Positions 4,747 to 50,768 of a DNA stretch of 64,000 nucleotides are shown in pieces (the stretch's first letter is position 1; each line of letters starts with the position of its first letter). The translations under genes and the position numbers were made by a program. The DNA comes from a virus. Under the pieces are notes generated by a model, which saw only the letters and a list, made by a program, of their open reading frames with translations, searched no databases and was not told the DNA's origin. The stretch is taken from IMG/VR virus record IMGVR_UViG_3300046171_000208, positions 1 through 64,000 of that record, one strand, 5' to 3'.

Positions 4747-4875
4747 GTGAGGGTTTCCTCACCATTAGAAAGGACTCGAAACAATCGTAACCCTGACTAC
4801 CAACTGCTCCCAACCAAGACCTACGTAGGCAGTATAATACTTCGTCTTTCTATCCAGTAGTGAGGGATTACTGGA
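4747..4875 (+). promoter_or_regulatory. Structured 5' leader of psbA
   Basis: The 239-bp space before psbA has no protein gene I can support. It holds a hairpin GTGAGG-GTTT-CCTCAC at 4747-4762, a 10-bp palindrome CCTACGTAGG at 4820-4829, and a hairpin TCCAGTA (4853-4859) pairing with TACTGGA (4869-4875) around a 9-base loop. None is followed by a T-run, so they are not terminators. They may control stability or translation of psbA mRNA. No ribosome binding site is seen right before the psbA ATG. Confidence 0.5.
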
Positions 4876-4923
4876 AATAAATATCGCAACTTCCCTGTTG
4901 CCCTATTTACAAACGTCTTACTA

Positions 4924-50045: not shown

Positions 50046-50075
50046 ATGGCGGGAAAAAATCCCGCCATTTTTTTT
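50046..50075 (+). terminator. Strong intrinsic terminator
   Basis: ATGGCGGG (50046-50053) pairs with CCCGCCAT (50061-50068) around a 7-base AAAAAAT loop, followed by T's to 50075. The next 110 bp to the promoter at 50185 are AT-rich and hold no gene I can support. Confidence 0.93.
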
Positions 50076-50184: not shown

Positions 50185-50213
50185 TTGCATATATAGAGTG
50201 AATGTGTTACTAT
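50185..50213 (+). promoter_or_regulatory. Sigma70-type promoter with extended -10
   Basis: TTGCAT (50185-50190), 17 bp, then TACTAT (50208-50213) with TG-T in front, an extended -10. It drives the 50232 gene and probably the riboswitch leader after it. Confidence 0.6.
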
Positions 50214-50231
50214 TAACACAACGTTCATCTT

Positions 50232-50426
50232 ATGGGCATCCTATTATCAGCTTTAACTCTTATTGCTAGTCACGAACCAGTCCATTGGACTATTAAGTGT
50301 GATAGGTGGATGGAACTCGCTTATGAAATCAAACAAGATCCATATCTTGATGATGCAAGTAAGTTGGGTTTAATCAACCATTTCAAGTATAAAGTAGAAG
50401 AAGCTTGTAATGTCGGGGAGACATAA
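50232..50426 (+). CDS. Small conserved phage protein (64 aa)
   Basis: The protein, MGILLSALTLIASHEPVHWT then CDRWMELAYEIKQDPYLDDA and KLGLINHFKYKVEEACN, has a hydrophobic start and two cysteines. I do not recognise a family with known function. It lies between a promoter and the riboswitch leader. Confidence 0.7.
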   Translation: MGILLSALTLIASHEPVHWTIKCDRWMELAYEIKQDPYLDDASKLGLINHFKYKVEEACNVGET

Positions 50427-50455
50427 GACGCAAGTAAGCCGACTCGGAACGGGTT

Positions 50456-50498
50456 CGTTCATCTCCTACGGGAGACGCACAAGTTGACTGAAGGAACG
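50456..50498 (+). ncRNA. Glutamine-II (Downstream-peptide) riboswitch aptamer
   Basis: The core matches the Downstream-peptide RNA of marine cyanobacteria, which binds L-glutamine. CGTTC (50456-50460) pairs with GAACG (50494-50498) to form P1. A hairpin TCTCC-TACG-GGAGA (50462-50475) follows, then GACGCACAAGTTGACTGAAG carrying the conserved loop bases. The next gene is a small peptide gene, the arrangement that gave the motif its name. The hairpin GGAT/ATCC (50498-50514) and AGGAG (50524-50528) lie between aptamer and ATG and probably act as the expression platform. An upstream GAACG (50447-50451) could pair with the same CGTTC and compete with P1. Confidence 0.82.
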
Positions 50499-50535
50499 GA
50501 TATTAAAAACATCCAATTACTTTAGGAGAAAACCA

Positions 50536-50643
50536 ATGGCAAAAGTCACTTATCGTGGTGTTGTTTACGACACCAACAGAAACAAAGCTCAGCAAACAAA
50601 AGAGGTCGAACTCACATATCGTGGCATTGCTCACGCTAAGTAA
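50536..50643 (+). CDS. DUF4278-like short peptide under riboswitch control (35 aa)
   Basis: The 35-residue peptide has two copies of a (K/L)-x-YRG-x-x-(Y/H) unit, KVTYRGVVYD and ELTYRGIAHAK, the hallmark of the cyanobacterial DUF4278 family. AGGAG lies 7 bp before the ATG. It is the first gene behind the glutamine-II riboswitch, so its level probably answers to glutamine, hence nitrogen status. The molecular job is unknown. The stop overlaps the next ATG (TAATG). Confidence 0.8.
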   Translation: MAKVTYRGVVYDTNRNKAQQTKEVELTYRGIAHAK

Positions 50644-50735
50644 TGTTAGTTACTGCAGAAATTTTAGCAGCATCTGCTATATTTCTAACTATCATTTACG
50701 CTGAAGCTAGATTCTTGTATGGATACAAGTTCTAA
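50643..50735 (+). CDS. 30-aa membrane peptide
   Basis: A single hydrophobic helix (EILAASAIFLTIIYA) with an aromatic/basic end (RFLYGYKF). It begins in the TAATG overlap with the riboswitch-controlled peptide and ends just before a terminator, so the two likely form a small glutamine-responsive unit. Family unknown. Confidence 0.6.
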   Translation: MLVTAEILAASAIFLTIIYAEARFLYGYKF

Positions 50736-50740
50736 ATTAT

Positions 50741-50768
50741 AAGGAGGGGTTGTTACCCTCCTTTTTTT
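50741..50768 (+). terminator. Intrinsic terminator closing the riboswitch operon
   Basis: AAGGAGGG (50741-50748) pairs with CCCTCCTT (50756-50763) around a 7-base loop, followed by T's to 50768. Confidence 0.92.

Follow-up and report, generated by a model that had tools for sequence, protein, structure and literature searches.

A predicted glutamine-I riboswitch of cyanophages with two interlocked modules and a gene in its P2 loop

The window analysed here, a 64,000-nt stretch of DNA from a virus record of 101,693 bases and of marine cyanophage source, probably contains a glutamine-I riboswitch of new architecture, in which two aptamer modules interlock, a translated gene serves as the P2 loop of module 1, and a two-way output is predicted. 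The aptamers of riboswitches are usually regarded as leaders that do not code for protein. The unit consists of three genes enclosed between a terminator at 50046-50068 and the one listed in Table 1. A sequence-only reading had placed a two-gene unit with its own terminator, preceded by a glutamine-II riboswitch, at 50427-50735; the terminator was recovered, but a third gene lies between the halves of module 1, and the span, which includes module 2, begins exactly at the module 1 3' half, whereas the element reaches approximately 205 bases further upstream. The CGTTC/GAACG pair, the UACG-capped hairpin and the AGGAG that the same reading listed are all present in the sequence, the AGGAG ahead of the ATG at 50536.

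Table 1. Features of the riboswitch locus (window coordinates)
Feature	Position	Strand	Evidence
Promoter-like TTGCAT-17-TACTAT; aptamer begins 8 nt further on	50185-50213	+	Sequence
Module 1, 5' half CGTTCATC (outer P1 5' strand and start of P2)	50222-50229	+	Repeats; relatives; outer P1 covariation
P2 stem 5' strand UCUUAUG, with ORF1 start codon; partner at 50422-50428	50228-50234	+	Stem covariation; ~79% of predicted ensemble
ORF1, 64 aa, phrog_6471, in P2 hairpin loop	50232-50426	+	phrog_6471 E=6.7e-15; dN/dS; homologues in aptamers
Module 1, 3' half GACGCAAGTAAGCCGACTCGGAACGG (E-loop AGTA; P3 5' strand 50437-50444; inner P1' strand GAACG 50447-50451)	50427-50452	+	P3 covariation
Module 2, without ORF (in order: CGTTC 50456-50460; P2' hairpin 50462-50475 with UACG loop; GACGCA; P3 3' strand 50482-50489; GAA; GGAACGG)	50456-50499	+	RF01739 35.5 bits; four-strand covariation
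Outer P1 3' strand, within module 2 GGAACGG	50494-50498	+	
Predicted OFF helix CUGAAG (50488-50493)/CUUUAG (50520-50525)	50488-50525	+	Minimum-energy fold; covariation in relatives
Shine-Dalgarno AGGAG of DUF4278 gene	50524-50528	+	Sequence
DUF4278 peptide, 35 aa (ATG at 50536)	50536-50643	+	PF14105 30.6 bits (gathering cut-off 25.3); phrog_5049
Hydrophobic peptide, 30 aa; start overlaps DUF4278 stop (TAATG)	50643-50735	+	Overlapping ORF kept in relatives
Intrinsic terminator	50741-50763	+	Terminator scan

A repeat scan detected two copies each of GGAACGG, CGTTCATCT and, with one mismatch, GACGCAAGTAAG around the locus, and related viral contigs carry a complete aptamer upstream whose 3' half is the sequence that forms the module 1 3' half of the window. 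Module 1 of the window is split: its 5' half is followed by the 64-codon ORF1 and then by the 3' half, and no further 3' halves of the module were detected elsewhere in the genome of this virus. The loop is closed by the stem UCUUAUG/CAUAAGA, which holds both the start and the stop codon of ORF1; no Shine-Dalgarno sequence was seen ahead of this ORF. Across the ORF, positions of the P2 stem covary to an extent matched by none of 2000 shuffles, and the split stem is part of the unconstrained minimum-energy fold of the window; given that the relatives are not independent, this and the other shuffle-based p-values are optimistic. That the stem has to close around a 187-nt translated loop counts against the interpretation preferred here. 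Where module 2 carries an ORF, the coding sequence runs into the aptamer core, from which the last codons and the stop are drawn (W D A N D stop, TGGGACGCAAACGACTGA).

According to the covariation, the two modules interlock, with the 5' end of module 1 pairing with the 3' end of module 2 and the inner strands forming a hairpin. For the common P3 types, the observed pairing was reached in 40 of 5000 shuffles; because this statistic is only moderately strong, rare module 1 P3 variants were deliberately fetched as a held-out set. In these variants, module 2 compensates (71 of 84 paired, whereas none of 10,000 shuffles exceeded 65), with an ORF between the strands in most cases, for example AAUCG/CGAUU, AUUCG/CGAAU and GAGAUAUG/CAUAUCUU. 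In the common form, all four P1 strands have C-G at the variable pair and are uninformative. At 48 loci, the inner GAACG and CGUUC change together (CAACG/CGUUG) while the outer pair is unchanged, and at 4 loci the outer pair changes to U-A as well. These 52 loci fit nested pairing and none fits two separate, sequential aptamers; the four P1 strands are decisive for the nested arrangement. The sequential tandem fold, which these variants contradict, is also less stable in all 26 ORF-free tandems, and RNAalifold yields the nested fold unprompted. In the window, formation of the complete nested fold in the absence of ligand carries a penalty of about 6 kcal/mol, and the fold therefore depends on binding. 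The P3 helix of the window has one C-A mismatch; in one subgroup of relatives, A-C mismatches are found repeatedly at the same positions of P3.

The assignment to class I starts from a marginal RF01739 match at 50454-50502 (35.5 bits, cut-off 35, E 5.6e-4; Rfam, 64 kb), accompanied by scores of 35.3-46.2 bits in relatives, one of which (L022) has an RF01739 match of 43.6 bits that covers both modules. The features of a glutamine-I aptamer are found when the two modules are considered jointly: the P1 CGUUC/GAACG with its conserved partner strand in the other module, the P2 hairpin as a 7-bp stem around ORF1 that covaries in the family, and the E-loop AGUA/GAA with P3 across the modules, in a three-way junction without a pseudoknot. 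The core motifs CGUUCA, ACGCA and GGAACGG, in which known glutamine aptamers have their ligand-contacting bases (PMC6698751), are kept in both modules, and the variation in P1 is confined to the pair described there as less conserved. The element is accordingly classified, from its sequence features, as a glutamine riboswitch of class I with putative ligand binding. A covariance-model search gave a significant glutamine riboswitch match, as the earlier reading had anticipated, in RF01739 and not in the Downstream-peptide family (RF01704) that it had named. That a glutamine riboswitch precedes a DUF4278 gene, as also proposed there, is supported, and it is a fair inference that the phage would sense host nitrogen status through this predicted riboswitch.

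In a junction scan of IMG/VR, in which counts are lower bounds and the window entered twice (as itself and as the copy L001), at least 133 tandem junctions were identified, at least 95 of them with an ORF in at least one loop. Among the matches listed, the types of module 1/module 2 were complete/split (54), complete/complete (28), split/split (27), split/complete, the type of the window itself (14), and other (10). In GenBank, the ORF-bearing layout is present in P-SSM2, P-SSM3, P-SSM4, P-SSM7, P-HM1, P-HM2, MED4-213, P-RSM1, P-RSM3, P-RSM6, S-SSM4, S-SKS1 and metaG-MbCM1, and the tandem without an ORF in P-TIM68, S-PM2, Bellamy and S-CREM1; the same design was also seen in Syn33, ACG-2014d, S-CAM4 and S-TIM4. 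Because most carriers are cultured isolates, an assembly artefact can be discounted, and the split-aptamer design, as judged from these sequences, recurs across T4-like cyanophages. A host origin of the tandem was considered and rejected: only 6 matches came from the genome collection, and both that were checked are cyanophage DNA, one resembling P-HM2 (L189) and the other being a contig filed as Nonlabens xiamenensis (L186, NZ_RMVE01000006.1), with 98.1% identity to P-TIM40 over the 8 kb tested. Among the variants, one locus (L171) has three successive modules with an ORF splitting the middle one, and in three others (L214, L231 and L238) the ORF1-type protein is located in module 2, not module 1, and the P2 of module 1 opens with G-C instead of U-A.

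Both families of loop ORFs, phrog_6471 (ORF1) and phrog_504 (ORF2), neither with an annotated function, are under selection at the protein level, with a median dN/dS of 0.22 for the ORF1 family and 0.24 for the ORF2 family, the aptamer-coding ends left out, and with an excess of third-position changes. Where module 2 carries an ORF, the linker between the modules becomes GAG, which yields GGAG ahead of the start codon, a Shine-Dalgarno sequence for ORF2 (54 of 82 split against 0 of 41 complete second modules among the matches listed, p=2e-14). At 47 loci fetched by ORF1 protein similarity alone, the aptamer 5' half was present in all 46 evaluable cases and the 3' half in all 45; two loci (L208 and L209) have just one glutamine-I aptamer of the standard kind, in which P3 is an ordinary hairpin and the ORF occupies the P2 loop. 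Of 80 ORF2 loci, fetched with a query stripped of the aptamer-encoded tail, 59 match the initial motif patterns of both halves, another 20 with complete flanks have recognisable variants of these motifs, and one ends at a contig edge; with tblastn, relatives of ORF2 were detected in 297 phage records. ORF1 has no Pfam match above the cut-off, and its predicted structure, a helical hairpin between two conserved cysteines (pLDDT 78), has no significant match in the PDB.

Upstream of the aptamer, the promoter-like sequence of the window scores below a stricter promoter scan; in relatives, TTGACT-17-TATAAT is located 7-8 nt 5' of the first CGTTC, and a dyad is enriched. In the window, the dyad TGTGTTA/TAACACA (50203-50220) contains the -10 region just 5' of the aptamer, and in relatives its sequence changes while the symmetry is kept (arms of at least 6 in 88 of 127, against 64 of 635 shuffled). 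Downstream, the 35-aa peptide ends within DUF4278 and lacks the C-terminal, GS-inhibiting part of gifB (IF17), of which DUF4278 is only the N-terminal part (PMC6316151). In the window and relatives, the second small ORF, which overlaps the stop codon of the DUF4278 gene, has at least two forms that look unrelated, a hydrophobic one (MLVTAEIL...) and a basic one (M(K/Q)KLN(F/V)LQLIK...).

The CUGAAG/CUUUAG helix covers part of the DUF4278 Shine-Dalgarno sequence and covaries in relatives, in which an A of the arm is never opposite C (p=7.5e-8) and a C never opposite A (p=6.7e-4). Because its arm shares bases with P3 and the E-loop GAA, the ligand-bound aptamer and the hidden Shine-Dalgarno would be mutually exclusive, as in an ON switch; such a switch is predicted for DUF4278, in line with the ON behaviour of cyanobacterial glutamine riboswitches (PMC6316151, PMC6698751). 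An alternative OFF helix, UCUCCUA (50462-50468) with UAGGAGA of the Shine-Dalgarno region, is complementary but competes with the stable P2' hairpin, and it is CUGAAG/CUUUAG that covaries instead. For ORF1, whose start codon is located in the aptamer stem, control opposite to that of DUF4278 is predicted.

We infer the following direction of switching and physiology. The outer P1 (CGUUC of module 1 with GAACG of module 2), the inner hairpin and the shared P3 would constitute one standard and one circularly permuted glutamine site. At low glutamine, CUGAAG/CUUUAG would hide the Shine-Dalgarno of DUF4278, and translation of ORF1 would begin at a start codon with almost no leader. Closure of the composite aptamer at high glutamine would free this Shine-Dalgarno, turning ON DUF4278 and the membrane peptide, and would bury the ORF1 start codon, turning ORF1 OFF; ribosomes translating in the loop might provide a second input. 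The arrangement suggests that two small proteins could be under the simultaneous control of a single glutamine sensor. In its fullest form, to which we give somewhat less than an even chance, the proposal is that of a natural two-site riboswitch in which a normal and a permuted aptamer share one P3, the loops house translated genes, one metabolite switches the loop genes OFF and the downstream genes ON, and ribosomes gate the sensor.

Several other explanations have to be weighed. The architecture could be real and the ORF a mere passenger in the loop, with glutamine controlling DUF4278 alone and the translation of ORF1 uncoupled from aptamer folding. Loops with and without ORFs coexist and ORF types swap modules, which implies that the aptamer works without an ORF; nevertheless, the start codons fall exactly in the covarying stem and the stop codons within the aptamer core, the linker turns into GGAG only in the presence of an ORF, and the ORF1 family was never found outside aptamers at the evaluable loci, all of which makes an uncoupled passenger unlikely. 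We see a smaller chance still that the fold is as described but responds to a protein or a metabolite other than free glutamine, or mainly couples translation. The ligand assignment is drawn from sequence, and the inner site lacks the AGUA E-loop; against this, the ligand-contact motifs (PMC6698751) are kept in both modules and P1 varies only at its less conserved pair.

Two simpler readings of the locus are already contradicted. A lone, ordinary glutamine-I aptamer at 50454-50502, with the upstream half-repeat as decayed debris and the 64-aa gene as a separate unit, draws on the fact that this segment by itself exceeds the Rfam cut-off; it is highly improbable in view of the four-strand and P3 covariation that tie module 1 strands to module 2 and of the half-module kept in every evaluable ORF1 homologue. 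Least probable of all is the glutamine-II riboswitch favoured by the sequence-only reading. Riboswitches of this type do precede DUF4278 genes in marine picocyanobacteria (PMC6316151), but the RF01704 score of 30.3 is below the cut-off of 33, 4 of the 8 pairs of the defining P2 pseudoknot helix are non-standard, and the class I E-loop and P3 are present across the modules. True class II riboswitches do occur in other viral contigs (L004, 49.8 bits).

Open reading frames in or beside the loops of structured RNAs are known from group I and II introns and OMEGA RNAs; the phage element likewise houses a gene in a structured RNA, but those are ribozymes or guide RNAs, whereas this one is a predicted ligand-sensing aptamer. 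With glutamine-I RNAs (glnA RNA, RF01739, for example the Synechocystis gifB leader), it shares P1, P2, the E-loop, P3, the ligand-site motifs, a target of the DUF4278 family and the translational context, but differs in that its two modules interlock, its P3 strands can be separated by as much as about 250 nt, its second site is permuted and its P2 loop houses a gene. Glutamine-II RNAs resemble it in the CGUUCA hairpin GACGCA ... GGAACGG motif and in the small DUF4278 proteins encoded downstream in marine picocyanobacteria; the phage element lacks their pseudoknot P2. Earlier work has described glutamine riboswitches of T4-like cyanophages and glnA RNAs in tandem (PMC9964418, PMC9602691, PMC2864571), as well as DUF4278 as a glutamine riboswitch target (PMC6316151). 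The tandem glnA RNAs also have two glutamine aptamers in a row, but only their tandem occurrence is noted (PMC2864571), whereas the phage pair is interlocked by covariation and not independent. Phage-borne glutamine riboswitches are likewise reported for S-CREM1 (PMC9964418), a tandem without an ORF, and Melnitz (PMC9004378); the portions of these reports consulted contain no description of a split aptamer, nesting or ORFs. In the open-access literature, no earlier report of an ORF within an aptamer or of a nested glutamine tandem was found. Across T4-like cyanophages, the conserved protein families phrog_6471 and phrog_504 live in aptamer loops, where the same bases serve coding and RNA pairing. 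Because the split module escapes standard Rfam scans, similar elements may hide elsewhere. Two-output sensing, and the way in which abundant ocean viruses might read host nitrogen, could both be studied on this natural model.

Additional elements were observed at or near these arrays. In ten loci (L019, L059, L069, L072, L106, L127, L132, L139, L152 and L169), a recurrent insert, ACGGATC-hairpin-(G)A(G/A)AAGGT, is located between the aptamer and the Shine-Dalgarno sequence and may be another RNA element. An identical hairpin, TTCGCTATTCGCAAATAGCGAA, fills P2' in L023, L062, L081, L125 (S-PM2), L147 and L153 and is possibly a mobile palindrome. A manA RNA adjoins the glutamine array in L126 (1820-2005) and L100 (586-780), and the window itself contains a PhotoRC-II RNA at 4788-4888 (+), with a score of 58.1 bits, above the Rfam cut-off.
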